From Fervidobacterium nodosum Rt17-B1 (GTDB taxonomy: Bacteria; Thermotogota; Thermotogae; Thermotogales; Fervidobacteriaceae), in NCBI RefSeq assembly GCF_000017545.1, contig NC_009718.1, positions 1,488,001 to 1,552,000 on the forward strand: 64,000 bases of DNA, written 5' to 3'. Under the pieces are notes generated by a model. It saw only the letters and a list, made by a program, of their open reading frames with translations, made no database searches and was not told the DNA's origin. A program made the position numbers and the translations under genes. Below, piece by piece: positions 7,072 through 24,442 of the stretch. Position 1 is the first letter of the stretch. The number at the start of each line of letters is the position of its first letter.

Positions 7072-7100
7072 GGCTTTTTTCAAGTCGAGGGGGGGATTCA

Positions 7101-8534: not shown

Positions 8535-8561
8535 TCTTTCCAAGAATTTTTTGAAACACTT

Positions 8562-8588
8562 GTCAGATTTTCCATATGCCCTCCGTTT
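8562..8588 (+). promoter_or_regulatory. Candidate CRISPR sigma-factor promoter, site A (cas1)
   Basis: GTCAGATTT (8562-8570) and CGTTT (8584-8588) lie between calpL and cas1. GTCAG and CGTT are 17 bases apart, and the -10 core is 46 bases before the cas1 ATG. The same bipartite motif recurs at three other starts in this locus. The CGTT core is typical of ECF sigma promoters. Which factor uses it is inferred, not shown. Confidence 0.6.
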
Positions 8589-8634
8589 AATTTAATGAAA
8601 AACAAACCAAGATAACTCCAGGAGGTCCGATGTT

Positions 8635-9624
8635 ATGGAAGCTCTATATGTTTTTAAAGACTCATATCTAAGAAAGAAAAGCTCTGCGCTTTACATAGAA
8701 CCAAAATCTGAGGACCAAAAGCCGATCTATGTTCCATTAAAAAACATATCTTCAATAATGGTGTTCTCTGAAATAGAAATGAACAAGAAGACTCTTGAAT
8801 TGTTCTCATATTCGCAGGTTCCTGTGTTCTTTTTTAACTACAACGGAGAATACATCGGTTGCTTCTATCCAGTTGAAGAAAACAAAACGGGAGAAATGCT
8901 ACTACTCCAACTGCAACACTATCAAGACTTGGAAAAGCGCATAATAATAGCACGAGAGATATTATACGGAGTGGCGGACAATATCTTGAAAATTTTGAAA
9001 AGTTACAAAAACGACTTTCCCGAGATAAACGAAAAAATCGAAATGATAGAGAAACTCAAAAAAACTTACCATCGGCAAGAAGAAATAGCTTCATTGATGG
9101 CTATAGAAGGCAATATACGCAAGAACTATTACGAAGCACTTGGTGTTATATTCTCGAAAAAAGATTTCACATTCCAAGAAAGAACAGCAAGACCTCCAGC
9201 GGACGAAATAAATGCGATGATTAGCTTTGGCAATACCATATTGTACAACGTCGTGCTTTCAGAAATATTCAAAACGTCGCTTGAACCTGCAATAAGTTTT
9301 CTGCACGAACCCAACAAAAGGAAATTCTCGTTACAGCTTGACATTGCAGAAATATTTAAACCTATCATTGTTGACCGAACAATTTTGACTCTTGTTAACC
9401 GTTCAATGATTAAGAAAGACGACTTTAAGAAAGTGGAAGGGGGGGTTTATCTTAACGAAACTGGGAAAAAGAAGTTTGTTAAAGCACTCGAGGAGAAATT
9501 ATCTGAAACTATTGACTACGAGAACGGTCAAAGAATGTCATGGAGAACGGTGATACGTTATGAATGCTACAAGCTCATCAGGCACTTGAAAGAAGAACAG
9601 GCTTACCAAGCATTTAGGTGGTAA
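8635..9624 (+). CDS. cas1: CRISPR integrase Cas1
   Basis: A 329-residue Cas1, the metal-dependent integrase that inserts new spacers with Cas2. The N-terminal beta domain is followed by the helical catalytic domain with the expected metal ligands: Glu158 (MAIEGN), His224 (FLHEPN), Asp236 and Glu239 (LDIAEIF). AGGAGG precedes the ATG. It opens the cas gene run but has its own candidate promoter (site A) in the 100-base gap after calpL. That suggests acquisition can be driven separately from the upstream effectors. Csm genes follow on the same strand. Confidence 0.95.
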   Translation: MEALYVFKDSYLRKKSSALYIEPKSEDQKPIYVPLKNISSIMVFSEIEMNKKTLELFSYSQVPVFFFNYNGEYIGCFYPVEENKTGEMLLLQLQHYQDLEKRIIIAREILYGVADNILKILKSYKNDFPEINEKIEMIEKLKKTYHRQEEIASLMAIEGNIRKNYYEALGVIFSKKDFTFQERTARPPADEINAMISFGNTILYNVVLSEIFKTSLEPAISFLHEPNKRKFSLQLDIAEIFKPIIVDRTILTLVNRSMIKKDDFKKVEGGVYLNETGKKKFVKALEEKLSETIDYENGQRMSWRTVIRYECYKLIRHLKEEQAYQAFRW

Positions 9625-9645: not shown

Positions 9646-12138
9646 ATGGCCATTAACAATGCAACACAGAAGTACAAAGATATGCTTTACCTTGCTTCGC
9701 TCTTTCACGACATCGGAAAATTCAGACAAAGAGCATCGATGGATGAAAAACTGAAGCGAAAGATAAAGGAAGAGTATGGATTTCAAATGTCTGAAAATTT
9801 AACAGGACTCGCTCATCAGTATGTTGGAGCGTACGTTTACAAGAGCTCAAAACTTCCTTACAGAGAGTTAGTCTCAGCCATTATCTCAAAACATCACGAA
9901 AGAATATCAACCATCACGAGTGAAAATGAATTGATCACCAGGGTTGTAAGTATAGCTGACAAACTCTCATCTGCCGAAAGAGAGGATTACGGTACTCAGT
10001 CAGATGTTAGAATAAAACTTATGAAATCAATAATCTCTACAGTCTCGCTAAGTGGTCGTTCTAAAGATGGTTATTTTAGAAAACTGTCCAAATTCTCTGA
10101 TGCATACGAACCTGTTAATGAAGAAGAAGCAGTTCGTACCAATTATGAAAAAGAATATGGAGCACTTTGGAAGGAGTTTGAACAATTAATTCAGGATCCT
10201 GAGTTTGAAGCATCAAACAATGAAGTCCTTGAAAGATTATACTATATTCTAAAAGAATACACATCAAATGTGCCTTCCGCTTTTTACTACAGTGAACCTG
10301 ATATATCTCTATTCTCGCATGCGACTTCAACGGCAGCGATAGCTGTAGCTCTCTACAAGCAATTCGAAGACGACTTGTTTGTAAAGCAGAATGACAGATT
10401 TATGAAAGCAGCTGGTATTCTTGACGGAATAGAAAACTTGGTACGTAAGTATTGGAAAAACGAAGCTTCTCAACCAGATGCCAGTGACAAGGAAGTATTC
10501 GGAGTAATAAAGGGTGACATATCTGGAATACAAGATTTTATATACAAAACCTCTTGGCAAAACGGTCTCAAAAAGCTTAGAGCCAGGTCATTCTTTATCG
10601 CATACCTTTCAGAAATCATAGCCAGATACATTATTGAGAAAGAAGGGCTGTACCAATCAAATATCCTTTACTGCGGTGGCGGGCACTTCTACTTGCTTGT
10701 TCCAGCCAAAACAATCGACAGGTTAGAGGAATACCAAAGGGATATAGATGAAAAAATGTACAAAGCGTTTGGAATAGACTTGGCTATTTTACTTGGTGGA
10801 ATAAAGATCAACATACACGACCTCATTGAATTCAAAGTCCATGACGAACTTGCAAAGATTCTTGAGGAAAAGAAAAACAAGAAATTTGAGAGCGTAATAG
10901 ACCTTGAAATGTTTATTCCTGAAGACTTCTCAGGTCCAAGATGTCCGTACTGCGGAAGAAAAATGCTGCAGATTACAAGAAAGGAAGAACAAGAAGAAGC
11001 ATTTGAGTGCGTATTTTGTGAATCTTTTGCTGAACTTGGGAGAAAACTTGCAAACTCAGATTATCTCAAAATAGAAAAATGCCCGGAGCTGATCACACCA
11101 CCAGCGAACGTAGACGAAGTTTTCAAGATGTTCGGTTACGAACTAAAATTCAGTGATAATCCAGACAAATTTGCCTTTGCGATTGACAAAAAGACATACG
11201 ACCAAAACAAGGCAATGTACTTTACAAAGATGGCAACCTACGTCTACAAAAAGTCCGATAAAGACTACGAAATGACAGCCGACCTTGAAACTATAGCACG
11301 TGAAGCAGAAGGAGTTAAGAGATGGGGGATCTTAAGAGGGGACGTTGACAACCTTGGAAGAATATTCCAAACACTACAAGTGTCTGATAAAGAGAAAAGA
11401 ACCCCGATATCGTTTGTTTCAACACTCTCGTCAGAACTTGAAGCGTTCTTCAGCATCGTTCTTGAAAGGATGGTGGTTGAGAAACACCCAAAATGCAATG
11501 TCATATACTCAGGCGGCGACGACTTCATGATACTCGGTCCATGGAGCGAATTACCACTACTTGCAAGAGATATAACAAATGAATTTAGAAAATACAGCAA
11601 AAATGATGAGTTATCGATATCCATGGCAATAGCAGTGGCACCTTCAAGAAAATTCCCGGTCTACAAACTTGGAACGCTGGCTGGTGAGTATCTGGACGAC
11701 AAAGCGAAATCATATAAACGCACGTACAATAACAAAGAATTAGAAAAATCAGCCATCTACATGTTCGGGGGGTATGTAGGTTGGGAGGAGTTTGATAAGG
11801 TCTACAAACTCAACCAGCAACTTGAAGACATTATTTCACAAGGTGTTACAAGGAATATACTGCACGTGCTGAGCGCTTTTCTTGATAAACAGCAAGAAGG
11901 TGAACAACCAAAGATTTGGCGGCTATATTATTACGTAGGAAGACTCATGGAAAGGCAGGAAAACAGAGAAACAAAAGCTCTGATTCAAAGGTTTTTCAAT
12001 GAAATACTGGAGGAAGGTAACAGCAGATTATATGATAAATTGGGATTGGTAATTAAGTGGGTTCACGACAAAACGCGTAAAGTTGAAAGTGATGAAAATG
12101 GAAAAGCTTCTCAAAACAGAATGATAACGGAGGTGTAA
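9646..12138 (+). CDS. csm1: Cas10/Csm1, type III-A large subunit and cOA synthase
   Basis: An 830-residue Cas10 of the Csm1 family. It has an N-terminal HD nuclease domain (FHDIGKF, His21-Asp22, and SKHHERI further on), a first Palm domain, a zinc-binding linker with two CxxC pairs (CPYCG at 433-436 and CVFC about 25 residues later), and a second Palm domain with GGDD at 623-626, the cyclase active site. Cas10 cuts single-stranded DNA through HD and makes cyclic oligoadenylate from ATP when target RNA is bound. Both HD and GGDD are intact, as needed to feed the CARF and SAVED effectors here. GAGGGGG precedes the ATG; the gene follows cas1 by 21 bases. Confidence 0.95.
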   Translation: MAINNATQKYKDMLYLASLFHDIGKFRQRASMDEKLKRKIKEEYGFQMSENLTGLAHQYVGAYVYKSSKLPYRELVSAIISKHHERISTITSENELITRVVSIADKLSSAEREDYGTQSDVRIKLMKSIISTVSLSGRSKDGYFRKLSKFSDAYEPVNEEEAVRTNYEKEYGALWKEFEQLIQDPEFEASNNEVLERLYYILKEYTSNVPSAFYYSEPDISLFSHATSTAAIAVALYKQFEDDLFVKQNDRFMKAAGILDGIENLVRKYWKNEASQPDASDKEVFGVIKGDISGIQDFIYKTSWQNGLKKLRARSFFIAYLSEIIARYIIEKEGLYQSNILYCGGGHFYLLVPAKTIDRLEEYQRDIDEKMYKAFGIDLAILLGGIKINIHDLIEFKVHDELAKILEEKKNKKFESVIDLEMFIPEDFSGPRCPYCGRKMLQITRKEEQEEAFECVFCESFAELGRKLANSDYLKIEKCPELITPPANVDEVFKMFGYELKFSDNPDKFAFAIDKKTYDQNKAMYFTKMATYVYKKSDKDYEMTADLETIAREAEGVKRWGILRGDVDNLGRIFQTLQVSDKEKRTPISFVSTLSSELEAFFSIVLERMVVEKHPKCNVIYSGGDDFMILGPWSELPLLARDITNEFRKYSKNDELSISMAIAVAPSRKFPVYKLGTLAGEYLDDKAKSYKRTYNNKELEKSAIYMFGGYVGWEEFDKVYKLNQQLEDIISQGVTRNILHVLSAFLDKQQEGEQPKIWRLYYYVGRLMERQENRETKALIQRFFNEILEEGNSRLYDKLGLVIKWVHDKTRKVESDENGKASQNRMITEV

Positions 12139-12141
12139 AGT

Positions 12142-12609
12142 ATGCCGGAAAACAGAAATAATCAACACTCAACAGCTCACCAAACCTCATCGCCTTTGCA
12201 AAAATTGTTTGAAACGGTTGAAAGGGTGTTTAAGGGTATCGACATTAAAAACATTGATGGTAGTGTTTACAACCAACTAAATACATATGCCCATGACATA
12301 GGAAAAGAGCTATCACTCAATTCATCTAAATTGCGAAAATTCTATAACCATATCAAAAAACTGGAAATGGAGATTAGTGATCACAATAGCATAGTAAGAA
12401 AGCTCAACAAATTCATTGCCATAATGATGTATGATGTGGGAAGGGAAAATAATGAAGAACTAAAGAACTTTGCTTTAGGTATGAAGAAACTCGTAGACTT
12501 AGTGAAGTCGAGTAATGAACACGAAATAAAGAAGTTTTACAACATTTTCCTTGATTTCTTCGAATCACTTGTAGCTTACCATAGATACTATCATCCGGAA
12601 AGGTCTTAA
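12142..12609 (+). CDS. csm2: Csm2, type III-A small subunit
   Basis: A 155-residue, mostly helical protein in the csm2 position, three bases after csm1 (GGAGGTG site). Family signatures such as LNTYAHDIGKELS, SSKLRKFYNHIKKLE and the C-terminal AYHRYYHPE are visible. Csm2 forms the inner filament of the Csm complex along the crRNA-target duplex. The first 20 residues are Ser/Gln/His-rich and probably disordered. Identity rests on position and sequence; Csm2 is a fast-evolving family. Confidence 0.88.
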   Translation: MPENRNNQHSTAHQTSSPLQKLFETVERVFKGIDIKNIDGSVYNQLNTYAHDIGKELSLNSSKLRKFYNHIKKLEMEISDHNSIVRKLNKFIAIMMYDVGRENNEELKNFALGMKKLVDLVKSSNEHEIKKFYNIFLDFFESLVAYHRYYHPERS

Positions 12610-12662
12610 ATCTTTTAGGTCGGAAATTTGCAAGAAAATAAAAGCATAAGGGAGGAAATGGT

Positions 12663-13391
12663 ATGGCAGTAAAATCTTTCAAAGGTAAATACATTGTCAA
12701 GGCTGATATAAGACTCATAACAGGGTTGCACATAGGCACGAGTAAAGATGACCTTGAAATAGGAGGACTTGATAACCCAGTCATCAAAGATCCCGAAGGA
12801 AAACCATACATCCCAGGTAGCACACTAAAAGGAAAACTAAGGGTGTTAAGTGAGTTCTTCAACGGAAAAGTGGATGAATCTGGTAAACCTCACGCATGTG
12901 ATGATGAGAAATGTGTCGTGTGTGGACTATTCGGTACAGGAATTCTTAGAACAGAGAGCAAAACACTTTATTTGAGAAGGCTCATAGTTAGAGATGCATA
13001 CATAGATCCAGAATCTTTGAAAGACCTGGAGGAATACTTGGAAACAAAATGGACAGAGGTGAAACACGAAAACATGATAAACAGACTAACATCAAGGGCT
13101 AATCCTCGACCTCAGGAGCGAGTTCCGGCAGGGGCAGTTTTCAAGGCAGAGTTTGTAGTCAATATATTTGAAGGAGACAACGAGGACTACCTGAATGAAC
13201 TCTTGAAAATAATGAAACTCTTGGAAGATGATTACATAGGTGGCAGTGGTTCAAGAGGTTACGGAAAAATAAAATTCGAGAACATAAAAATAATCAAAAG
13301 AGAAAAGGATTACTACACTGGAGATAAAGAAGAGAGAACGATTAAGGAGATCAAATGTTTAGAGGACGTGGCGATTAAGAGTTCACACTAA
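12663..13391 (+). CDS. csm3: Csm3, type III-A backbone RNase
   Basis: A 242-residue RAMP protein forming the Csm backbone and cutting target RNA at 6-nt steps. The catalytic Asp is Asp37 in IGGLDNPVI. The thumb and RAMP glycine loops are present (GSTLKGKLRVL and GGSGSRGYGKIKF). A cysteine cluster HACDDEKCVVCGLFG (about 79-93) fits the zinc site of Csm3. GGGAGG precedes the ATG. It sits between csm2 and csm4 in the canonical order, with short gaps. Confidence 0.95.
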   Translation: MAVKSFKGKYIVKADIRLITGLHIGTSKDDLEIGGLDNPVIKDPEGKPYIPGSTLKGKLRVLSEFFNGKVDESGKPHACDDEKCVVCGLFGTGILRTESKTLYLRRLIVRDAYIDPESLKDLEEYLETKWTEVKHENMINRLTSRANPRPQERVPAGAVFKAEFVVNIFEGDNEDYLNELLKIMKLLEDDYIGGSGSRGYGKIKFENIKIIKREKDYYTGDKEERTIKEIKCLEDVAIKSSH

Positions 13392-13435
13392 GCTCCGTAA
13401 GTTTCTTATCAATTCAAAACAAACTGTAGGATGTG

Positions 13436-14407
13436 ATGCATATGCTAACCTATCGGGTAAAGCTTAGATTCAAGGGACCGATTCATATTGGATACCTTGA
13501 TAGAGTATTTGAAGTTTCTGATGCTACGATTCATGCAGATACCATCTTCTCAGGGCTCATTAACTCTTATAACTTACTTTTCGGAAGTGAGAAAACTAAG
13601 GAACTACTTGGGAAAATAGACAATAGTCACTCAGAGCTACTTTTATCGTCGACATTCTTTTACGTAGGAGACAAATATTTTCTTCCAAAACCAAAGGGTG
13701 AAACATTTGGTTTAGAGAATAAAATTGAACAAGTTAAGAAAATTAAGAAGATTAAGTTCGTTGAAGACAAGGTATTACTGGAGAATTCATCGCTTAGCGA
13801 AGAAAACATAGATATACCCTTCATACTCTCAGGAAAAGCCGATGCAGCGATTGCGAAGTTCTATGAAGTTCTAGAACGTCCGAGAGTCATGGTTGCGCGG
13901 GATTATTCTCAATCGAACCTGTTTTATTTCTCTGAAGTCCATTTCAAAGAGGGCAGTGGGCTATGGTTTTACTTAAAAGTTAGCGACGATATAGAAAAAG
14001 AAGTATTGGCGGCTTTGAAACTGCTTTCCGATGAAGGAATAGGCGGAGACAGAACTTACGGCTTTGGCCAATTTGAGTATGATTTAACACAGGTGAATCT
14101 TCCAGAACAAGGAGAGAACTATTTACTTCTCTCACCATATATTCCAGATTCGGAAGATTACGAAGAAAACTCGAAAGAAATCACAAAGCTTGCAAAGGCG
14201 TACGAACTACGATACAGAACAGGTTACATCCACAACAGCGACAAAAAGGCAAAAAGAGTGACAATGTTCGCAGAAGGAAGTGTATTCACAAAACCAGTAA
14301 AAGGAAAAATACTTGACGTAACACCCGACAACTTCGAATACGATTACAGAATATACAGATACGGGAAAGCATTCCTACTCCCGTTTAAAGGGGGTACAAA
14401 CACATGA
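13436..14407 (+). CDS. csm4: Csm4, crRNA 5'-end binding RAMP
   Basis: A RAMP protein of about 323 residues at the csm4 position. It opens with the family-type strand YRVKLRFKGPIHIGY and HADTIFSGLINSY, and has the glycine loop DEGIGGDRTYGFGQFE (about residues 196-211) that holds the crRNA 5' tag and contacts Csm1. Three in-frame starts compete: GTG 13433, ATG 13436 and ATG 13442. GTAGG at 13426-13430 favours 13436. Its last codons overlap csm5 by four bases (ATGA), indicating translational coupling. Confidence 0.92.
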   Translation: MHMLTYRVKLRFKGPIHIGYLDRVFEVSDATIHADTIFSGLINSYNLLFGSEKTKELLGKIDNSHSELLLSSTFFYVGDKYFLPKPKGETFGLENKIEQVKKIKKIKFVEDKVLLENSSLSEENIDIPFILSGKADAAIAKFYEVLERPRVMVARDYSQSNLFYFSEVHFKEGSGLWFYLKVSDDIEKEVLAALKLLSDEGIGGDRTYGFGQFEYDLTQVNLPEQGENYLLLSPYIPDSEDYEENSKEITKLAKAYELRYRTGYIHNSDKKAKRVTMFAEGSVFTKPVKGKILDVTPDNFEYDYRIYRYGKAFLLPFKGGTNT

Positions 14408-15549
14408 GGTTGAGAATTGAGCCAGTCTCTCCTGTATATATAGGCTCAGGTGAGAAAATAGGTAAGTTTGAAATGCTAATTCGTGGTGACAAAACATACG
14501 TTTTAGATTTTGACAAACTAATGTCTAAGAACAATTTTGTGGAATATTTTGTTGCAAACATTGATATAATCCTTGAACCGTCAAAAAAAGACATAGCCCT
14601 GGAAAAAATATTCAAAGCTCTAAAAATGAACGTCGAAGATTATACAAAATTTGTCTTTCAAACCATCATGGATGAAGAGTCTGCCAAGACTTTACAGATT
14701 AGTAAATTCATACACTCAGCAAACAGAAGATACATCCCCGGAACATCGATTAAAGGTGCACTTCGAACGATGTTAATCAAGGCTACGTCACTAAGAGAAA
14801 AAATGACAAGAAAATTTGGAGATAACAATTCGGTCAACGACATCAGAAAAAATGCAATCGAATCTGAATTGGTAGGTTTTCCGCAGCAGTCCATATTTAA
14901 ATTTCTAAGAGTTTCGGATAGTACTTTCATCGATAGCAGATACATCAACGTGAAAAAGGTGGAGATAATTCACCTTTCAAATGTAAGGGCTCAGATACCG
15001 CAGTTTATCGAGGCATGGTTACCTGAAAACAATACAGACGGCCAGAGCAATTCTGTAGAGGTAACCGTCGAATTTAAGAACGACTTATACAGATTAGCGT
15101 TGGAAAAAAGAAATATTTCAAGAATATGTGCTATTCCAGAGCTCGCCGCAATACTTACGCAAAAGGACAAGTTTATTGCTGCAATGAAGAAGGCAAATAA
15201 CGAAGTTATTCGGATCGAGAAAGAAAAGATCAGTAAACTTAAAGATTTTTCAGATCAAAACAGGCAGCAGATAAAAAAAGTACTCCAAACTTTCTATGAT
15301 GATATCGAAGCTCAGAATGAGCAACTTCAAGACTCATTCTTCCTCAGACTTGGTGGACATACTGGATTTTATTCAAAGACAATTTTCGAGAAACCTCTTT
15401 CTGGAGAGCTGGTCAGATTCTTGGGAAGATTTGGATACAGAAATCTGAACATGAACGAATTTCCGATAACCACAAAAATTGTCTGGCTTTCGCCTTCTCC
15501 GAACGAAGTGAAGCCACTTGGATGGGTTAAAGTTACAGTCTTAGATTAA
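14404..15549 (+). CDS. csm5: Csm5, crRNA 3'-side RAMP
   Basis: A 381-residue Csm5, which caps the Csm complex at the 3' side of crRNA and recruits maturation nucleases. Family features: RIEPVSPVYIGSGEKIGKFE at the start, YIPGTSIKGALRTML (about 116-130), and the late glycine-rich LRLGGHTGFYSKT. The ATG overlaps the end of csm4. It is the last clear Csm subunit, so the complex encoded here (Csm1-5) is complete. Confidence 0.92.
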   Translation: MRLRIEPVSPVYIGSGEKIGKFEMLIRGDKTYVLDFDKLMSKNNFVEYFVANIDIILEPSKKDIALEKIFKALKMNVEDYTKFVFQTIMDEESAKTLQISKFIHSANRRYIPGTSIKGALRTMLIKATSLREKMTRKFGDNNSVNDIRKNAIESELVGFPQQSIFKFLRVSDSTFIDSRYINVKKVEIIHLSNVRAQIPQFIEAWLPENNTDGQSNSVEVTVEFKNDLYRLALEKRNISRICAIPELAAILTQKDKFIAAMKKANNEVIRIEKEKISKLKDFSDQNRQQIKKVLQTFYDDIEAQNEQLQDSFFLRLGGHTGFYSKTIFEKPLSGELVRFLGRFGYRNLNMNEFPITTKIVWLSPSPNEVKPLGWVKVTVLD

Positions 15550-15567
15550 CAAATTGGAGGAATGGAT

Positions 15568-16167
15568 TTGATTGAGATTATCACTGAATGGAACTTTCAG
15601 GCTCCAAGAACTATCACTACAGAGGATATTAAGTTAGTTTACAATACATTAGACGAAGAATTCTTGTCAGTTTCTCATTTTCTCTCTAAGAAATATTACC
15701 CTTACGAAAAAGGTTACTACGTCTTTGGAAAGACCTATTTGAAGATTCGAACCTATGAATCACGGGTTGGTTCCATTGCGAAGAAACTCATTAAGCTGTT
15801 CATAAACGGAACCAGCCCTTGTTCCATCTCAATACAAGAAATCAGTCCAAATTCAGAGGGGTTTATCATTGCAAACAAAGAACTTGGAGAACTAAACTAT
15901 GACGAAGTTTTATCACATATTGAGGATTGCTATTTTTCATTAGCAGAACGGTTATACAACGGTTTTTATCAGAAGAAGCTCATTCCAGTTATAACGAATT
16001 ACAAAAGCAATCTTTACCGAATCCAGCTTTTTGGCGATGAGAAAGTGATAGAATTATTCAATATCGTAGGGCTTAATATTTTTGGAAAAAGATTATTCTT
16101 CTACCACAAGGAAGAACTTGGGGAATTAGAAAAGCTCTCAAACAAAATTAAGGAGGTTTTAATTTGA
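15568..16167 (+). CDS. Unrecognised protein between csm5 and cas6
   Basis: A protein of about 199 residues that I cannot assign. It lies 18 bases after csm5 and overlaps cas6 by four bases (TTGA), so it is translated within the csm-cas6 operon. It is mixed alpha/beta, without signal peptide, membrane segment, Cys pairs or a nuclease motif that I can name; aromatic and Lys/Glu residues are frequent. The ATG at 15562 lies only one base after GGAGG; TTG 15568 has correct spacing and is preferred. It could be a divergent RAMP-like or accessory Csm factor, but nothing in the sequence proves that. Confidence 0.75.
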   Translation: MIEIITEWNFQAPRTITTEDIKLVYNTLDEEFLSVSHFLSKKYYPYEKGYYVFGKTYLKIRTYESRVGSIAKKLIKLFINGTSPCSISIQEISPNSEGFIIANKELGELNYDEVLSHIEDCYFSLAERLYNGFYQKKLIPVITNYKSNLYRIQLFGDEKVIELFNIVGLNIFGKRLFFYHKEELGELEKLSNKIKEVLI

Positions 16168-16907
16168 GGTTATATATCAAATTCAGCTTCGAACAGCTCG
16201 AACTTCCAACCGAATACAACAACATTTTGCAAGGGTTCGTATACAACATCATTAGTGAGGAGAAATACAGGAAATTCCTTCATGACAAAGGCTATCAACT
16301 CGGTAAACGAACTTACAAACTATTTAGCTTCTCAAGATTGCTTGGTAAATTCGAGCTTAATAAAGAAAATAAGACCATCAAGTTTTTAAACGAAGCGAAG
16401 TTGATAATATCTTCTTATGATACTTTACTTGCTGAGTTCATAATTGAAAAAGTAGGAACATTTGATAGCCTAAGAATAGGTCGTAATATTGTTCGACCAG
16501 AGAAAATCGAAATCTTTGAATTTCCACAAACCCAAAAAATCGTCGTATCAACAAAATCTCCAATAACAGTTTACTCGACGATCGAAAAAGATGACGGAAA
16601 GAAATTCACAAAATTTCATTCACCAAACGAAGATGATTTTATAAGGATTCTTAAAGAAAACCTTTTAAGAAAATACCAAACAATACACGAAACGCCGTTT
16701 AAAGGAGAGCTTCATATTGAAAACATAGCGGAAAAACCAAAAAAAGTGATATTGCAGTACAAGAACAGGAAGCTTGATGGATGGATAACCGTTCTAAAGC
16801 TCGAAGGGGATTACGAGATACTAAAAATAGCCTACGACACAGGATTAGGTTCCAAAAACTCTGCAGGATTTGGTTGCATCGAACTGGTAGACAAAGTACT
16901 GACTTAA
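16164..16907 (+). CDS. cas6: Cas6, crRNA-processing endoribonuclease
   Basis: A 247-residue Cas6 with the double-ferredoxin RAMP fold. It cuts the repeat RNA to make crRNAs with an 8-nt 5' tag. The diagnostic C-terminal glycine-rich loop reads GLGSKNSAGFGCIELV (about residues 228-243). A His in the N-terminal domain (FLHDKGY, near residue 39) is a possible catalytic residue. TTG start with AGGAGG at 16151-16156, overlapping the previous gene. It ends two bases before the stop of the reversed gene that follows. Confidence 0.92.
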   Translation: MRLYIKFSFEQLELPTEYNNILQGFVYNIISEEKYRKFLHDKGYQLGKRTYKLFSFSRLLGKFELNKENKTIKFLNEAKLIISSYDTLLAEFIIEKVGTFDSLRIGRNIVRPEKIEIFEFPQTQKIVVSTKSPITVYSTIEKDDGKKFTKFHSPNEDDFIRILKENLLRKYQTIHETPFKGELHIENIAEKPKKVILQYKNRKLDGWITVLKLEGDYEILKIAYDTGLGSKNSAGFGCIELVDKVLT

Positions 16908-17212: not shown

Positions 17213-17260
17213 TCTTTCTACCTCCGTTACAAAAAATTTGAAAGTGAGGTGTTTACGGTA

Positions 17261-17539
17261 ATGTCAAGGAGAATACTGCTTGTTTATGACGTCAACGAAA
17301 AAAGAGTGGCAAAAGTTCACAGATTGTTACTAAGATACTTAGTATGGCGGCAGAACTCAACTTTCGAAGGAAAACTAACCAATGGCGCTATAAAAGAAAT
17401 GATAAGAAAAATATCAAGATACATAAAACCTGAAGAAAATGATGGGGTTGCGATATATTACCTTTCCTCAAAAGACAGTGTAACAGTAGAAATTCTTGGA
17501 ACTGACAAAGGAAACAAATTCTCGAACTTTATAGAATAA
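17261..17539 (+). CDS. cas2: Cas2 (first copy)
   Basis: A 92-residue Cas2, partner of Cas1 in spacer integration. It has the Cas2 signature RILLVYDVNEKRVAKVHRLL, with Asp10 at the usual metal site, followed by RQNSTFEGKLT. The reading frame extends to GTG 17249, but ATG 17261 matches family N termini and has GAGGTG ten bases upstream. It faces the second cas2 head-on with 17 bases between stops and no obvious terminator. Confidence 0.92.
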   Translation: MSRRILLVYDVNEKRVAKVHRLLLRYLVWRQNSTFEGKLTNGAIKEMIRKISRYIKPEENDGVAIYYLSSKDSVTVEILGTDKGNKFSNFIE

Positions 17540-17556: not shown

Positions 17557-17820
17557 TTACTCTATCATAGACTTTTCACCTTGCGCTTCCCCGATGATCA
17601 GCTTATGAGGCGCACTTCCTGTTTTTATTATGTAAAAATAAATACTGTCGTACTCTTCATCAATTACCTTTCTTAGCTCAGACTTTAACATACTATACTG
17701 CTCCTGAGTGAGATAACCTTCAAAAGCAGATCTAAGAACTTGGTGGAGATACTTTCGGCATATTTTCAAGACCTTTCGACACCGCCTCACTTCAACATCG
17801 TAGACAACTATAAAGTACAT
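17557..17820 (-). CDS. cas2: Cas2 (second copy, reverse strand)
   Basis: An 87-residue Cas2 read from the leader side: MYFIVVYDVEVRRCRKVL with Asp8, then RSAFEGYLTQEQ and DSIYFYIIKTG. The frame is open 33 codons further upstream, but ATG 17820 has GGGAGG and begins at the family N terminus. It is clearly diverged from the plus-strand cas2, so it is not a recent duplication. Candidate promoter site D lies 39 bases upstream on the same strand. Only one cas1 is present in the window. Confidence 0.9.
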   Translation of the reverse strand: MYFIVVYDVEVRRCRKVLKICRKYLHQVLRSAFEGYLTQEQYSMLKSELRKVIDEEYDSIYFYIIKTGSAPHKLIIGEAQGEKSMIE

Positions 17821-17857
17821 ACCCTTTCGTCCTCCCAATCTCATCTCTAAATTTAAA

Positions 17858-17883
17858 TAACGTGGAAAATACAGAGAACTGAC
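17858..17883 (-). promoter_or_regulatory. Candidate CRISPR sigma-factor promoter, site D (reverse cas2)
   Basis: On the minus strand GTCAG (17883-17879) and CGTTA (17862-17858) are 16 bases apart, the same spacing as sites B and C. CGTT is followed by ATTTAAATT. It lies 38 bases before the reverse cas2 start. Confidence 0.55.
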
Positions 17884-18354
17884 ACTGCATTTCGAATCAA
17901 TATGATATTCATTTTGCAATATAATAGCAATTGATAATTAATATCTCATCTGTAACACTAATTGAGATGATCGACAGTAATTCTAAAAACTTTTTATAGC
18001 ATATGTTAGCAAAAAAAAAAGAACAACAACCAACACTAAGTAATATAAAAGAGACATTATAGACACTCAAAAGTTACATACATCTTAATTTATATGGTAG
18101 CAACATTAACATATAGCTCGCTGAAAATTGGCAACTAGCGTCAAAACACGCTAAATGAACTTATGGTATGTAACAAATTTGTTAAGTTGAATTCTTGCTA
18201 CTAATCTTCTCACCTAGAACTCAAGACTTCTTTCTTGAAGAAACACTCGCAACTTCTTTATCTATGCTCTAACTTCACAGATCAGACGAATTTTACAAAT
18301 GTAACTATCAATTTTAACATAAAATGTTGTATATTATATATGAGGGATGGACGA
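17884..18354 (+). other. CRISPR leader region
   Basis: AT-rich, gene-free DNA between the reverse cas2 and the first repeat. Leader position is supported by decay of repeats at the opposite end of the array. At 18339-18351 it holds TATGAGGGATGGA, an exact 13-base copy of the second half of the repeat, three bases before the first full repeat. The promoter of the array was not pinned down. Confidence 0.7.
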
Positions 18355-19476: not shown

Positions 19477-19890
19477 TTGAAAAAGCTCGGAAGTTATAAG
19501 TTTTATTCTCAACTTGTCATTTTCTATCATCCAGCGAAGACGGTTGGAAGTTTTTTGAATCTTCCAGATGTGTATATGTCAAGGAGTGGTACGAGATCAT
19601 CAAGACCCGGGCTCTTGGAAGAAAAGGGCTCGCAAGTTCTTGTTGCCTTTCTTTCTACAAAGAATTATTCGGGTATAAGATTTAATTTGATAGACTGTTG
19701 TCCTTTGGCAAACGAGAGAATTTACGGAAACGAAAATTATATAATGAAATTCCATGGTGTTTCAGTCTTTAGGCTACCAGTTTTCTATATCAATAATTTA
19801 AAGCGAGAGAAGAAGATTGTCTTCGTTGCTGGTTGTTCCATTGATTTAGAGCATTGGAGTGATGAATGTGTCACAATTGAGAGATTTTAA
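19477..19890 (+). CDS. 137-residue protein ahead of the sigma factor
   Basis: First gene after the array; TTG start with GGGGTGAG seven bases upstream. It overlaps the sigma factor start by about 30 bases, so the two are probably translationally coupled. The product is beta-rich, and the stretch GTRSSRPGLLEE followed by QVLVAFLST has the rhythm of MazF/PemK-type barrels. I give this only as a possibility, because the MazF homologue in the published Calp system is CalpT itself. No membrane segment is visible; two adjacent Cys (DCCPLANE) and a later CSIDLEH are notable. Function unknown; context suggests a regulator or toxin in the CRISPR signalling operon. Confidence 0.7.
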   Translation: MKKLGSYKFYSQLVIFYHPAKTVGSFLNLPDVYMSRSGTRSSRPGLLEEKGSQVLVAFLSTKNYSGIRFNLIDCCPLANERIYGNENYIMKFHGVSVFRLPVFYINNLKREKKIVFVAGCSIDLEHWSDECVTIERF

Positions 19891-20572
19891 AAAAATTGGC
19901 CGATGTCTAAGATTGTATATTCGTACGGGAAACTTTTCTTCTGAATGTGAAGGTGTTATCAAGAGTTTCATTAGGCACATAATATATAACACACCTGGTT
20001 TTAGTTTTGGAGCTTCGCGTAGCTTATCCAACGATGCTTTAGTTGACGACATTTCCCAGGAGGTTTTGAGTGCTTTTTGGAATGTAAGACAGAGATTGGA
20101 ATCTATAACTGATGATGCTGCTCTGACTAATTATTTTATGAGATCTGTCAAAAATAAGATTCAAGACTATCGTCGCGCTAATATCAGGGCTTCAAGTGTT
20201 GTTTCATTGAATCAGTCAATTGCCTCGAATGATGATGAGTACTCTGAGATGCTCGATTTTGTGCCTGATAAAGGTTCTGAGATCGAGCAGTTCGATGAAG
20301 TCATTGCTGAATATATTTTTGACAGTTTCGTGAGCTATATGCGTAGTAAAGAAGCCGATATCTGCGATTATATTTTCTTTTCTTTATTAGCTCAAAGTAC
20401 ACACTTCAGAGAGTACAGTTCTACCGATGCAATGTATAAGGCTCATCAGAGGGCAAGGGATAGGGTAAAAGCATTTTTCGAGAAAGAGGTAAGTGTTTCA
20501 TACGGCGTGATAAAGAAGATTTTAAAAAGATTTGTGTCAGAAATTTGCGAGAGTTTACGTAATAATAATTGA
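19862..20572 (+). CDS. calpS: ECF-like sigma factor (CalpS-like)
   Basis: A 236-residue sigma-70 family protein. Region 2 is clear: VDDISQEVLSAFWNVRQRL (about 62-80) corresponds to the DLxQEVFLRxW core-binding helix, and NYFMRSVKNKIQDYRR (about 91-106) to the -10 recognition helix. The C-terminal third (about 165-225, with STDAMYKAHQRARDRVKAF) fits region 4. No N-terminal region 1 or membrane part, as in ECF factors. In the published Calp pathway the ECF factor CalpS is held by CalpT and released when CalpL cuts CalpT. Here it is followed by a candidate CalpT. ATG 19862 is chosen; GTG 19859 just before it is equally possible. Confidence 0.75.
   Translation: MNVSQLRDFKKIGRCLRLYIRTGNFSSECEGVIKSFIRHIIYNTPGFSFGASRSLSNDALVDDISQEVLSAFWNVRQRLESITDDAALTNYFMRSVKNKIQDYRRANIRASSVVSLNQSIASNDDEYSEMLDFVPDKGSEIEQFDEVIAEYIFDSFVSYMRSKEADICDYIFFSLLAQSTHFREYSSTDAMYKAHQRARDRVKAFFEKEVSVSYGVIKKILKRFVSEICESLRNNN
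20536..20561 (+). promoter_or_regulatory. Weak candidate promoter, site E (CalpT-like gene)
   Basis: GTCAG at 20536-20540 and CGTA at 20558-20561 (spacing 17), followed by ATAATAATTG. It lies inside the 3' end of the sigma gene, 66 bases before the CalpT-like start. The final -10 base differs from the other sites, and coding sequence could produce this by chance. Confidence 0.3.
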
Positions 20573-20627: not shown

Positions 20628-21425
20628 ATGAAAAAATTGAAAGAAATATTTGACAATTATAAAAGCATTTCGAAAGTGATAGAAAAGCCTTACGAGGTTG
20701 GAATAGAAAGACTTGAGATTGGGGATATCTTTGTAGTCTATGCCGAAGATCTTGTCTATGGTGTTGTTATAGAAGAATTAGACGGCGTTTACAATGCAAT
20801 CTTTCTAACAAGTGAACTGATATTAGGAGGTCCGGGGTACAAAGTTAAAGTGAACCATTTGGTTTCAGCGTTGAAAGTGACACCAATAAATTTTTACGTA
20901 ATTCCTGAACTTGTTAAGTATTGTGAGGTCATAGGAAAGGTACAAGATTTGGAGACCTTGAAAGAAAACTTCAGAAAGCTGACGGAGAGAGAATACAAAG
21001 GTGTCTGGAAAAGCTTCTATGAATGGGAAACTAAACGTATAGGTATTTTCTATGACGCGTTTTTGGAATATATTAGCACTCAAGAGGAAACGAAAAAGGC
21101 ACTTGATAAAGACGAACTTGATAAAGACGAAATAATAATTGATTTACGAAAGTTTTTTGATGTTGATGAAATCAAGAAGAGAATTACAGAAGTTGCTGCT
21201 GCCGCCTCAAACATTTTGAGCAAAGAAGATTATATATTACAGAGCGAAAATGGCGTTCTTTCCTTGTTCTTTTCCGACGAGTTTGTTGGCAAGAATGTTG
21301 AGGTTAAGCTTTTCAACAAGATAATCTTTTCAGGACCCGCTCCGAACGTTTTGAAAATTGATTTGCATACCGATGCTCCTGTAAGCATAATTTCTGAGAA
21401 GCTCGAAGTTGTTCTGACAGAATAA
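20628..21425 (+). CDS. CalpT-like protein, candidate anti-sigma factor and protease substrate
   Basis: A 265-residue cytoplasmic protein directly after the sigma factor (55-base gap, GGAGGTG site). The N-terminal part has short strands like a MazF/PemK barrel (LEIGDIFVVYAEDLVYGVVIEEL, about 30-52). A helical, charged middle (about 105-185) contains the tandem LDKDELDKDE, and a beta-rich C-terminal domain (about 200-265) follows. In the described Calp operon CalpT is a MazF homologue that binds CalpS and is cleaved by CalpL. Position and N-terminal fold fit, but sequence recognition is weak. The charged repeat around 160-170 would be an accessible place for cleavage. A strong terminator ends the operon. 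Confidence 0.55.
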   Translation: MKKLKEIFDNYKSISKVIEKPYEVGIERLEIGDIFVVYAEDLVYGVVIEELDGVYNAIFLTSELILGGPGYKVKVNHLVSALKVTPINFYVIPELVKYCEVIGKVQDLETLKENFRKLTEREYKGVWKSFYEWETKRIGIFYDAFLEYISTQEETKKALDKDELDKDEIIIDLRKFFDVDEIKKRITEVAAAASNILSKEDYILQSENGVLSLFFSDEFVGKNVEVKLFNKIIFSGPAPNVLKIDLHTDAPVSIISEKLEVVLTE

Positions 21426-21483: not shown

Positions 21484-21512
21484 GGTGTGTGCTTTACGCA
21501 CACACCTTTTTT
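21484..21512 (+). terminator. Terminator of the sigma-factor operon
   Basis: Nine-base stem GGTGTGTGC/GCACACACC with a five-base loop and six T. Confidence 0.9.
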
Positions 21513-21612
21513 GTTTATTAGGAATTCGCTATCCACTTTATTTTGCCTTGTTTAATCGTTCTTGTTTTTGGCAAGCATTTTGATTTTCTCCAAGATTTCT
21601 TAGAAAGCATCT

Positions 21613-21638
21613 GTCAGATTTCACCAGTTACGACGTTT
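21613..21638 (+). promoter_or_regulatory. Candidate CRISPR sigma-factor promoter, site B
   Basis: GTCAGATTT (21613-21621) and CGTTT (21634-21638), with 16 bases between GTCAG and CGTT, then ATTATAGTG. It lies 95 bases before the exported-protein gene at 21734 and shares nine -35 region bases with sites A and C. Confidence 0.6.
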
Positions 21639-21733
21639 ATTATAGTGACCCTCAAAAATCTTTGCTAGTAATGGTTCTTTTGAAGCCGGTACGGAATTTC
21701 TAAAGTTCCAACTTCTTGTGGAGGTGGATAGTA

Positions 21734-22291
21734 GTGGTTAGAAAGGGGATAGTTATTACTTGTTTTCTATTCACAATCTCTATTTTCTTCAGTTTACAAG
21801 CATGTGTTGGCACTTTCGATGATCCATTACACGGCTGGACAATTTCGAGCAAGAAAGACCCTATGACTGGAAAAGAGAGTTGGTATGCTATTTCACCTGA
21901 GGTAAAATCGCTCGAAATAATGACCTTTCCATATTCAGGCACAAAAGCGAGGTTAGTCGTTGCAACAGATGGACAAACAGAATGGACGTACATATGGTTC
22001 AACAATGCACCCAACATCGTAGATTTCGACTTTGGGAGTGGGGGATACCTTATTATAAACACGCGCATAAAATGGGATAACCAAGAACCGGAATACGCTA
22101 CGTTTTACAAAGAACCGCTGAGTAACTTCTTGAATTTTGGAAACGATGTGTATATCATTGACAAAATCCTGAACCACGAAAAACTGACGGTCGAACTCAA
22201 TTGGTACAGCCAAGGATATGTGCATTTTGAATTCCCACTTGCAGGTGGCAAAGAAGCAGTTAAGCAGATAAGAAGTAAGTTCAATAAATGA
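21734..22291 (+). CDS. Exported protein or lipoprotein of unknown function
   Basis: A 185-residue protein with an N-terminal hydrophobic helix (residues about 6-22) ending in SLQAC, a possible lipobox, so it is probably exported and lipid-anchored. The mature part is beta-rich and begins TFDDPLHGWTISSKKDPMTGKESWYA; I recognise no family with a known activity. The start is GTG 21734, 7 bases after GGAGGTGG. Candidate promoter site B lies upstream, and a second exported-protein gene follows after 84 bases. Its place behind the CRISPR sigma operon makes it a candidate target gene. Confidence 0.75.
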   Translation: MVRKGIVITCFLFTISIFFSLQACVGTFDDPLHGWTISSKKDPMTGKESWYAISPEVKSLEIMTFPYSGTKARLVVATDGQTEWTYIWFNNAPNIVDFDFGSGGYLIINTRIKWDNQEPEYATFYKEPLSNFLNFGNDVYIIDKILNHEKLTVELNWYSQGYVHFEFPLAGGKEAVKQIRSKFNK

Positions 22292-22375
22292 TAAGTAATT
22301 GTTTGGTTTCATTTTGCGTTCCGTACCGGCAACTTTTTTCAAAATTCATAAACTTCAGGGGAGGTTGGAAGGTAT

Positions 22376-23209
22376 ATGAAAGGTCTTAAGGGAAGCATAT
22401 GGATCATTATCACGCTATTAACTCTCTTTGGAACAACTTTGCTTGCAGAAACAGAATCAGCAACAAGCGCTAGTTTGGCGGTTGTAGAGAACGAAGAAAT
22501 AAGAATAATTGTAGACTTGGAGAGCTATGCAGGAACGCTATTTGACATTTTGGCAAATACAAAAGTCTTGCGTTTAACAATTACTAACAAGACAGGACTA
22601 CCTTTGAAAATCATATGGGACGAATCTCTATTCACTGACAACTACGGGAAACCCGTCAAACTAATTCGTGAAGGTCAAAAGTTCATAGACGCAACGCGTG
22701 CTCAGGTTCCGACAGTAATCTTGCCGAATTCTACACTTTCAATTATTGCAGTCCCAGAGAGTCACATTTATTACTCAGGTGGTTGGCAAGTTCTTGGAAT
22801 CTCCGGAATTGTTTCCAATAGAAAGTTGTTTGTTACATACGAAGTTAATGATAAAAAGAAGTACATAGAAACAAGTATAATAATAGAATTGCCATCGAAA
22901 TCTTCTAAAAACCAAAAAACAAGGATCACTTTTCCATTTTTCAATATTCTCTACCCTTTTTCTGACAAAGAAGGAAACATAACAAGTTACAAAGGCTTCT
23001 CGGCACTTCTCTTTGGATACGTGGAAAAGAACTATTATGGATCTATGAAATTCAACTCATGGAACAACTTCTGGCATTGGGGAACGGCATTTATTGTACT
23101 CCCATATATAGGTATAGGAACTGAATATGTCAACGGTGATGGAACATTTGCATTTTCGCTTTTTACATTGTATATAGTCCCATTCTTTGAATTTTCAGTT
23201 TCATTCTAA
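22376..23209 (+). CDS. Exported protein of unknown function
   Basis: A 277-residue protein with a typical signal peptide (hydrophobic residues about 8-22, cleavage likely after LLAET or nearby). Residues about 30-170 are an immunoglobulin-like beta domain (LRLTITNKTGLPLKIIWD, then VTYEVNDKKKYIETSIIIEL). The C-terminal 100 residues are aromatic and Gly-rich (FGYVEKNYYGS, FWHWGTAFIVLPYIGIG) and may form membrane-associated strands or helices. GGGGAGG precedes the ATG. No family assignment. It probably forms a transcription unit with the preceding exported-protein gene. Confidence 0.75.
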   Translation: MKGLKGSIWIIITLLTLFGTTLLAETESATSASLAVVENEEIRIIVDLESYAGTLFDILANTKVLRLTITNKTGLPLKIIWDESLFTDNYGKPVKLIREGQKFIDATRAQVPTVILPNSTLSIIAVPESHIYYSGGWQVLGISGIVSNRKLFVTYEVNDKKKYIETSIIIELPSKSSKNQKTRITFPFFNILYPFSDKEGNITSYKGFSALLFGYVEKNYYGSMKFNSWNNFWHWGTAFIVLPYIGIGTEYVNGDGTFAFSLFTLYIVPFFEFSVSF

Positions 23210-23233
23210 TTTTGATACCTTTTTCTTCTCCTC

Positions 23234-23262
23234 AACCGCCTCTATATTTGAGGCGGTTTTTC
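23234..23262 (+). terminator. Terminator after the exported-protein genes
   Basis: Nine-base stem AACCGCCTC/GAGGCGGTT with a seven-base loop, running into TTTTT. Confidence 0.88.
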
Positions 23263-23285
23263 CTTTGAAAAGTTGAAAAAGTTAT

Positions 23286-23311
23286 GTCAGATTTTGCCGA
23301 TTCTTACGTTT
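23286..23311 (+). promoter_or_regulatory. Candidate CRISPR sigma-factor promoter, site C
   Basis: GTCAGATTT (23286-23294) and CGTTT (23307-23311), 16 bases between GTCAG and CGTT, followed by TATATATTG. It lies 47 bases before the 40-codon basic ORF, a distance like that of sites A and D. Confidence 0.6.
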
Positions 23312-23358
23312 TATATATTGTAAACTACCAGAAAAGCTTCTAGTTGGGAGGTATTCCT

Positions 23359-23481
23359 TTGATTAGGAGGAAAGAGGAAAAACGTGTGAGAAGAAGAATT
23401 CGTAAACACCGTCTTCCTGTTTGGGTACCTATTAAAAAGAGAGGATTATTAGAAAGGTTAGGTTTAATTAGACCGTCGTGA
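23359..23481 (+). CDS. Small, highly basic 40-residue protein
   Basis: A short ORF with a strong GGGAGGT site six bases before its TTG start. The product is 40 residues with about 18 Arg/Lys (RRKEEKRVRRRIRKHR, then LPVWVPIKKRG), no acidic patch and no Cys. Such a protein would be expected to bind nucleic acid or a negatively charged surface; no family is recognised. It sits between a terminator and the amidotransferase gene and has the candidate promoter site C upstream, so it may be part of the CRISPR sigma regulon. Confidence 0.65.
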   Translation: MIRRKEEKRVRRRIRKHRLPVWVPIKKRGLLERLGLIRPS

Positions 23482-23556
23482 TATCTCAATATCTTTGCGG
23501 CTTACTTATGCGGTTATTCTGTTAAGTATTAAACTTTAGAAGAGGAGGTCTTTTCG

Positions 23557-24237
23557 GTGTGTAGATTAGCCATTTTCAACAACATGGGTATAAAAGGAAC
23601 ATGGTTGGACATGCTTACTCTATCAAGAGGCGGAGATGGAAACGGGTTTGTTAGCTCAGAAGAGATAGAACCAAGACGCTACAAAATTGGCAAAACAAAA
23701 GATTTCTTAGTGAACGATTTGCATGTCAAGAAATGGTTCATTGGTGAAAACTACGCATATGAGCACGCAGGTTTAGAAATTTCTTGGCTTGTTTTTCACA
23801 CGAGGTATGCAACGGTTGGAAGCGTTGACCTTGAACACGTTCATCCATTTGTTGTAAGAAATGAAAATAGAATTGTGTTGCTCATGCAGAACGGACACGA
23901 ACCAGATAACATACAGCAATTGGCAGAAGAAACTGGAATATTCTTTGACGGAACTGATTACAGAACAATGGCACGAATAATTGCGGAAACAGGAGACAGT
24001 TGGCACCTAACCAAAACACGAAGCAACTGGTTTGTCTTTGTCTTTGAAAAAGCTGAAAACAAGTGGTATCTGAACGTTGCTTCATTTAGACCGTACGACC
24101 CACTTCATTTCTACGGGGATTTTAAAGGTTCTTTCTACATATCTTCAGAAAAATTAGAATCAGATCAAGAGACAAAGACATTAGAAGGTCTCTTAAGATT
24201 TGAAGTATCAAAAGAAAAATTGAAACTCCTTGTCTAA
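23557..24237 (+). CDS. Class II glutamine amidotransferase-like protein
   Basis: A 226-residue Ntn-hydrolase domain of the class II glutamine amidotransferase type. The N terminus is MCRLAIF, so Cys2 becomes the N-terminal nucleophile after Met removal. HTRYATVGS (about residues 88-96) and HVHPFVV match the conserved glutaminase core (compare YafJ-type proteins). There is no synthase domain, so the acceptor of the ammonia, or whether it has another Ntn activity, is unknown. The GTG start follows AGGAGG. It lies 75 bases after the small basic ORF with no terminator between, so both could be transcribed from site C. Confidence 0.85.
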   Translation: MCRLAIFNNMGIKGTWLDMLTLSRGGDGNGFVSSEEIEPRRYKIGKTKDFLVNDLHVKKWFIGENYAYEHAGLEISWLVFHTRYATVGSVDLEHVHPFVVRNENRIVLLMQNGHEPDNIQQLAEETGIFFDGTDYRTMARIIAETGDSWHLTKTRSNWFVFVFEKAENKWYLNVASFRPYDPLHFYGDFKGSFYISSEKLESDQETKTLEGLLRFEVSKEKLKLLV

Positions 24238-24312: not shown

Positions 24313-24341
24313 CATGGCTTCGGTACTCCACCGAAGCCATG
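24313..24341. repeat. Palindromic hairpin, copy 1 of a dispersed element
   Basis: Twelve-base perfect stem CATGGCTTCGGT/ACCGAAGCCATG with a five-base loop, preceded by TTCACATCG. There is no T run, so it is not a classical terminator for the plus strand. A close relative lies at 38239-38265 and a decayed one near 36483-36516. Confidence 0.55.
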
Positions 24342-24442
24342 CCGAGTGAAAACTTTATAAGATAATTTTTTCCGTTCCACTTCCGTGGGCAAGTCCAATT
24401 TACAAGCTTCTGAGTAAGCAATACAGTTGTAAAATTAAGGTA

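Follow-up and report, generated by a model that had tools for sequence, protein, structure and literature searches.

A 64,000-nucleotide stretch of the Fervidobacterium nodosum Rt17-B1 genome (contig NC_009718.1, positions 1,488,001 to 1,552,000; called the window, and numbered from its own first base throughout) contains a type III CRISPR locus with the genes of a CalpL/CalpT/CalpS system, that is, a Lon-SAVED protease (CalpL), an anti-sigma factor (CalpT) and a sigma factor resembling those of the extracytoplasmic function (ECF) group (CalpS). Beyond these genes lie two pairs, B1-B2 and C1-C2, preceded by short bipartite sequences named sites B and C, respectively. Both sites very probably act as CalpS promoters, with the four genes as CalpS targets, because the motif recurs before cas1, cas2, B1-B2 orthologues and genes of exported proteins in Calp-positive Thermotogota and, one recently transferred island apart, is confined to coding sequence in Calp-negative genomes. 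An earlier note on this DNA had proposed the four genes as outputs of the sigma pathway, which is now very probable, with B1-B2 conserved under the same motif in two other species. Binding of the TGTCAG-N16/17-CGT motif by CalpS is held to be highly likely, and the whole explanation, in which CalpS promoters drive cas, brake and exported genes and the envelope is changed, is considered probable.

The motif in the F. nodosum genome

Sites B and C share the sequence TGTCAG-N16/17-CGT(A/T)n, and both precede the gene pairs described. The three sites first reported, A, B and C, do exist, with the start of site B corrected to 21612; two more, D (17884, minus strand) and E (20535), had been overlooked at that reading. 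The genome searched is a single contig of 1,948,941 bases. The pattern TGTCAGATTT-N12/13-CGTTTWW occurs three times in it, always at this locus, on the plus strand and 5' of genes, and the relaxed pattern TGTCAGNYHYN12-13CGTWWWW four times, again only at this locus, the fourth copy being site D, 5' of the second cas2 gene. A chance repeat was rejected, being excluded by these counts and by Markov-shuffled windows, which gave a mean of 0.02 motif matches and a maximum of 1 among 300. Simple scans for sigma-70 promoters showed no excess. As in a regulon, a shared bipartite motif with a spacer of 16-17 nucleotides stands 5' of the proposed output genes:

8561 to 8592, plus strand: site A, putative CalpS promoter of the cas1-cas10-csm operon, TGTCAG-N17-CGTTTAATT; kept before cas1 in G068, G069 and G070.
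17854 to 17884, minus strand: site D, putative CalpS promoter of the second cas2, TGTCAG-N16-CGTTATTTA; same before the corresponding cas2 in G068.
20535 to 20567, plus strand: site E, putative CalpS promoter in the 3' end of calpS and 5' of calpT, TGTCAG-N17-CGTAATAAT; frozen codons, spacing as in site A.
21612 to 21642, plus strand: site B, putative CalpS promoter of B1-B2, TGTCAG-N16-CGTTTATTA; kept before B1 orthologues in G069 and G070.
23285 to 23315, plus strand: site C, putative CalpS promoter of C1-C2, TGTCAG-N16-CGTTTTATA; identical copy in the G067 island.

Distribution of the motif among Thermotogota

In G068, G069 and G070, all relatives of the genus, cas1 is preceded by the motif; G070 has extra DNA between calpL and cas1, yet the motif remains with cas1. 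It also precedes the B1-B2 orthologues of G069 and G070 (52 and 47% identity), where the -35 and -10 boxes of the B1 promoters are conserved and the spacer differs, and a cas2 in G068, to which a relaxed scan adds cas2 genes in G069 and G070. Among 45 genomes of the order, an intergenic copy before a gene was found in 9 of the 15 Calp-positive versus 1 of the 30 Calp-negative genomes (Fisher p 4.8e-5, uncorrected for kinship, the close pairs G069/G070 and G078/G079 not being independent). That single Calp-negative genome is G067, which carries the transferred island described below, and the remaining six matches in Calp-negative genomes all lie within long open reading frames (ORFs). A genus-wide element was also considered and dropped; the motif tracks Calp, not genus.

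Further genes under the motif were found in other genomes. In G078, G079 and G083 it precedes a gene for an exported protein of 125-126 amino acids, followed by cas2-cas1. G085 has a motif-bearing homologue of this exported family (122-126 amino acids) at a distance of 530 kb from its CRISPR locus, and there the motif is also found before cas2 and before a gene for an exported, barrel-like protein of 210 amino acids. Sites unlinked to the CRISPR locus precede RNase H genes in G078 (L046, G078:C6) and G079 (L047, G079:C3), and in G077 (L143, G077:C23) the gene behind the unlinked site encodes a YdjM-like membrane protein and shares its unit with an RNase H gene. In G073 (L142, G073:C29, 850-1143) a site precedes the gene of a 97-residue protein rich in Arg, Gly and Tyr, a small basic product like C1. 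Judged by these positions, the motif follows genes and not merely the CRISPR locus, and exported or membrane proteins next to cas1/cas2 appear as a recurring class of proposed CalpS targets, other genera included. Separately, an RNase H-like gene was noted beside the type III array of G067 (G067:C10:69656).

A putative promoter inside calpS

Site E lies at 20535 in the last codons of calpS and reads TGTCAGAAAT-N13-CGTAATAAT, with a spacing equal to that of site A. When 12 divergent CalpS genes are aligned, the Arg column at the -10 position is CGT in all 10 genes having Arg there, against a background of 9% of Arg codons, and the Ser column at the -35 position is TCA in 11 of 11 genes (background 25%). 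No other synonymous site of calpS is nearly as frozen as these two, and other conserved Arg columns show mixed codons. The -35 box begins with A instead of T in two genomes, G068 and G069. A promoter within a gene would require frozen synonymous codons, and both columns are frozen at site E; the best explanation of the pattern is that selection acts on a promoter which doubles as coding sequence. Site E is likely such a dual-coding promoter, giving negative feedback through calpT, and the codon comparison links the motif to CalpS without recourse to the flanking genes.

These results bear on the proposal that the motif belongs to another host ECF sigma factor or regulator, unrelated to CalpS. 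Some Calp-positive genomes have no obvious intergenic sites, as such a proposal would allow, but the motif goes with the Calp locus rather than with the genus, and calpS itself contains a frozen copy, which leaves this origin very improbable.

The exported pair B1-B2

Site B precedes genes of two exported proteins, a lipoprotein and an immunoglobulin-like (Ig-like) protein with a signal peptide, as the earlier note had stated; it was also right that none of the four genes is a cas gene, with no such match in Pfam or PADLOC.

21685 to 21696, plus strand: GCCGGTACGGAA, left arm of an inverted repeat around B1.
21734 to 22291, plus strand: B1, predicted exported lipoprotein with an IalB-like fold; lipobox Cys, AlphaFold2 mean predicted local distance difference test (pLDDT) 86.5, Z 12.4 to 3dtd.
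22319 to 22330, minus strand: right arm of the inverted repeat around B1, reverse complement of GCCGGTACGGAA.
22376 to 23209, plus strand: B2, exported protein with an Ig-like domain and a C-terminal small beta-barrel ending in Phe.

The lipobox Cys of B1 (L..C) is invariant in the four closest orthologues, and the lipobox is missing from the B1 relatives of G005 and G048. No Pfam or NCBIfam match to B1 was obtained, the sole profile match being phrog_1848 (function unknown) at 6e-7. The AlphaFold2 model of B1 (pLDDT 86.5) aligns with IalB (3dtd) at Z 12.4 (3.1 Å, 137 residues), well ahead of the rows that follow, and six 3dtd chains top the list at 9-10% identity. The GCCGGTACGGAA inverted repeat brackets B1 both here and in G067, with no other copy in either genome.

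B2 begins with a signal peptide, followed by an Ig-like domain at residues 28-175 and a small C-terminal barrel at 175-277 whose last residues are SF. Its structure matches are middling, with a best Z of 8.6 in the Ig part and of 7.9 in the barrel, and thus allow no function to be deduced. The barrel has eight predicted strands and its best matches are PsbO/hemophilin-type barrels at Z 7-8 (predicted template modelling score of the model, 0.52); such a modelled barrel could sit in the outer membrane. In G068 (L026, G068:C1:1071169-1071490) a degraded remnant of a B2-type barrel was seen near CRISPR arrays, suggesting that this genome lost the module.

The pair is kept with Calp under the same motif in two other species of the genus (G069 and G070). 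Full-length B2 without Calp, apart from G067, was found in G053 only, where it heads a type III-B operon (L111: lipoprotein-B2-cas1-cas2-cas2-cas6-cmr genes) that has no CalpL. The B2 barrel domain alone heads an apparent type I-B operon in G012 (L113), also without CalpL; the cas names in both operons come from sequence reading, not from hidden Markov models. B2 and its barrel proteins are possibly an exported, CRISPR-linked family. No viral relatives of B1, B2 or C2 and no phage matches of B1 or C2 were found, and a plasmid search with these families returned the Ig domain alone, in Marinitoga piezophila and Stanieria.

Accepting that the CalpS promoters are real, B1-B2 and C1-C2 might instead serve envelope or metabolic housekeeping after infection, as stress repair, and not be antiviral outputs. 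ECF sigma factors commonly control envelope genes, the fold of B1 is that of IalB, a known envelope protein, and C2 resembles a metabolic amidotransferase. Housekeeping does not readily account for B2 and B2-type barrels standing directly in cas operons in the absence of any Calp system, nor for the CARF effector genes next to B1-B2 in three genomes, G067, G069 and G070. Such a role retains an appreciable, though minority, probability.

A further alternative is that the exported pair is toxic and kills or arrests the infected cell, as abortive infection at the envelope. Expression from an alarm promoter would suit a dangerous product, and releasing the CalpS of another species reportedly arrests growth of Escherichia coli. 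Against this, profile and structure searches found no pore-like or hydrolase signature in B1 or B2, and the ring nuclease of CalpL (PMC11417357) together with the predicted CalpT brake points to a reversible response; toxicity is considered unlikely.

C1-C2 and the G067 island

23359 to 23481, plus strand: C1, predicted 40-residue basic ORF with a TTG start and a good ribosome-binding site.
23557 to 24237, plus strand: C2, stand-alone class II glutamine-amidotransferase-like protein of the N-terminal nucleophile (Ntn) type; catalytic residues, weak profile matches.

The small basic ORF announced under site C is there, with 16 Arg/Lys residues (11 Arg and 5 Lys) and not about 18, and a net charge of +13. 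The amidotransferase-like Ntn gene reported behind it was likewise borne out. C2 (226 amino acids) matches Pfam GATase_6 at 2.7e-4 (21.4 bits versus a cut-off of 27), NCBIfam purF at 18 versus 350, and PurF 1ao0 at 0.003. The class II residues are present (Cys2, HTRYAT 81, QNG 111 and GTD 132), and C2 is likely a glutaminase-type Ntn hydrolase because it retains the N-terminal Cys, HTRYAT, NG and D. B1, B2 and C2 gave no CARF or SAVED match in Pfam or PADLOC, and C1 no Pfam match, being too short at 40 amino acids. Lacking domains that sense cyclic oligoadenylates, the four products would be transcriptionally induced outputs and not CARF/SAVED effectors. An action of C1 on nucleic acid or polymerase, which the earlier note had suggested, gained no support.

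The island B1-B2-site C-C1-C2 recurs in G067 with 93.8% identity over 2.5 kb, against 71-76% in the aligned flanks. Its C part is identical to that of F. nodosum, and C1 shows no nucleotide difference over the compared stretch. By these identities the G067 island is a recent transfer. G067 has a related type III-A cas10 and neither CalpL nor CalpS; its cas10 frame (G067:C10:61029-63575, L148), in a type III-A locus without CalpL, appears to be interrupted by a stop. A strong hairpin, GCATGGCTTCGG...CCGAAGCCATGC at 24313-24344, marks the right-hand boundary of the island common to this genome and G067.

Regular occurrence of the four genes in genomes without CalpL or type III systems was looked for and not found for the whole set: B1-B2-C1-C2 without Calp is present in G067 only, which has type III-A. 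Might the four genes be no more than cargo, carried on a mobile island that bears the promoter by chance? The island did move between this genome and G067, and transposase-like genes lie nearby. However, B1-B2 and the same promoter are found at 47-53% protein identity in G069/G070, so the association is old, and B2 homologues occur in cas operons of other families. This argument covers B1-B2, not C1-C2 alone. Cargo is an improbable explanation of the whole set, though it may hold for C1-C2 by themselves.

The surrounding locus

The locus runs from csx1 and calpL through site A to cas1-cas10-csm2-5-cas6, two cas2 genes on opposite strands and the CRISPR arrays. Then follow an ORF of 137 amino acids, calpS, calpT, a terminator, site B, B1, B2, a second terminator, site C, C1 and C2. 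It combines a Lon-SAVED fusion, a CRISPR-T protein next to an ECF-like sigma factor, and an adjacent type III cas10, the features of a CalpL/T/S system. The names of the smaller csm genes were assigned from position and homology.

5440 to 7071, plus strand: csx1 (CARF-HEPN-CARF), first gene of the sensor unit; PADLOC CARF_HEPN_CARF, E 7.7e-240.
7065 to 8534, plus strand: calpL, Lon-SAVED protease and sensor of cyclic tetra-adenylate (cA4); PADLOC SAVED_LON 7.5e-192, full length; Pfam SAVED 1.8e-10.
8635 to 9624, plus strand: cas1; Cas1 homologue in the same place in G059, G068, G069 and G070, 67-77% identity.
9646 to 16907, plus strand: cas10-csm2-csm3-csm4-csm5-unknown-cas6, proposed to be expressed with cas1; gene order kept in relatives.
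9646 to 12138, plus strand: cas10; PADLOC Cas10a 5.5e-108.
17249 to 17539, plus strand: cas2, first copy; kept beside cas1/array in relatives.
17557 to 17820, minus strand: second cas2, Cas2-like protein of 87 amino acids; relatives also with a second copy.
19859 to 20572, plus strand: calpS, ECF-like sigma factor; Sigma70_r2, E 4.2e-4; homologues in 14 of 103 Thermotogota genomes.
20628 to 21425, plus strand: calpT, anti-sigma factor; PADLOC CRISPR-T 5.4e-32, Unk_02 1.1e-100.
21484 to 21506, plus strand: intrinsic terminator 3' of calpT.
23234 to 23258, plus strand: intrinsic terminator 3' of B2.

The Sigma70_r2 match of CalpS is weak and below the Pfam cut-off, and calpS is the conserved operon partner of calpT in the relatives read. 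The two terminators set the B and C units apart from calpT and from one another. The 137-amino-acid ORF (19477-19890), just 5' of calpS, is conserved in nine other Calp loci. Nothing in Pfam, PADLOC, NCBIfam or PHROGs matched it, and its product is a candidate fourth Calp component. A scan of all GTDB species with the CalpL alignment returned two Thermosipho loci and nothing else, and the plasmids searched gave no CalpL match. G076 has three SAVED or Lon-SAVED-like matches to CalpL, two of them adjacent (L031, G076:C13; G076:C4).

Proposed response

In the proposed response, phage RNA would activate Cas10, the resulting cA4 would activate CalpL, and CalpT would be cleaved. The freed CalpS would direct RNA polymerase to TGTCAG-N16/17-CGT(A/T)n promoters, raising the Csm complex and Cas1 from site A and the second Cas2 from site D. 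From site E it would raise CalpT as a brake, active CalpS thereby renewing its own inhibitor, and from sites B and C it would raise B1-B2 and C1-C2. B1 and B2 would then alter the envelope of the infected cell during boosted adaptation and interference. The likeliest effect would be to restrict the entry of further phage, or to protect the envelope or the cell during spacer acquisition. This envelope function is speculative, with a probability somewhat below even, and a defence role of C1-C2 is more doubtful still.

Several observations weigh against the proposed regulon and its envelope role. No clear intergenic site was seen in the stretches read of the Calp-positive genomes G059, G064, G076, G080 and G084, and G067 retains the B1-B2-C1-C2 module in the absence of CalpL and CalpS. 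C1-C2 were found in two genomes only (this one and G067), C1 being a predicted ORF. B1 relatives occur in the distant G005 and G048 with no cas genes around them, which means that this fold family is not specific to CRISPR, and the two domains of B2 are found separately in many genomes (28 of the 103 match the profile). The envelope role itself is read from signal peptides and folds.

Comparison with known systems

Two of the proposed targets have relatives of known structure or chemistry. The fold of B1 is common to IalB, the invasion-associated protein B of Bartonella (PDB 3dtd), from which B1 differs as a lipoprotein under a CRISPR promoter, with no functional link implied. C2 shares the N-terminal Cys, HTRYAT, NG and D with the class II glutamine amidotransferases PurF and GlmS and is without their synthase domain.

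The cA4-activated cleavage of CalpT by CalpL and the release of CalpS are established in other species (PMC11417357; PMC12751052). As in the pathway of Sulfurihydrogenibium and others, a Lon-SAVED protease, a CRISPR-T anti-sigma factor and an ECF-like sigma factor lie by a type III locus. In PMC11417357, PMC12751052 and PMC11229360 (the main subscription-journal papers lie outside that scope), the output is known as a transcriptional response, and neither the CalpS promoter nor target genes are given. Here, in contrast, a promoter and targets are proposed, including a calpS-internal promoter driving calpT. Conserved targets among adaptation genes, the interference complex, the brake and exported proteins would make this response directly testable.

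Exported outputs, if true, would be out of the ordinary for CRISPR, whose action is taken to be cytoplasmic, and exported envelope proteins may be a defence arm at the cell surface. It is therefore conceivable, at not quite an even chance, that type III signalling has an envelope arm, in which exported lipoproteins and barrels of the CalpS regulon act outside the cytoplasm along with Cas1/Cas2, Csm and a self-limiting anti-sigma pulse.

Control of cas and adaptation genes linked to cyclic oligoadenylates is likewise attributed to the archaeal CARF-HTH protein Csa3 (PMC9704534). Csa3 is a DNA-binding CARF protein, whereas a protease-released sigma factor is proposed here. The closest precedent is the type III-E CASP-sigma system (Cas7-11-Csx29-Csx30), in which a CRISPR-activated protease also frees a sigma factor. 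Its motifs stand before cas1 and two unknown genes, one of them for a predicted membrane protein, and its authors suggested a parallel with CRISPR-T (PMC10028731). The two systems differ in protease, sensor and anti-sigma factor, and the targets proposed here are an exported lipoprotein, an Ig-barrel protein, cas2 and calpT, plus RNase H in relatives. The CalpS regulon would be a second CRISPR protease-sigma circuit, put together independently of III-E CASP and, like it, converging on cas1 and on genes of membrane or exported proteins.

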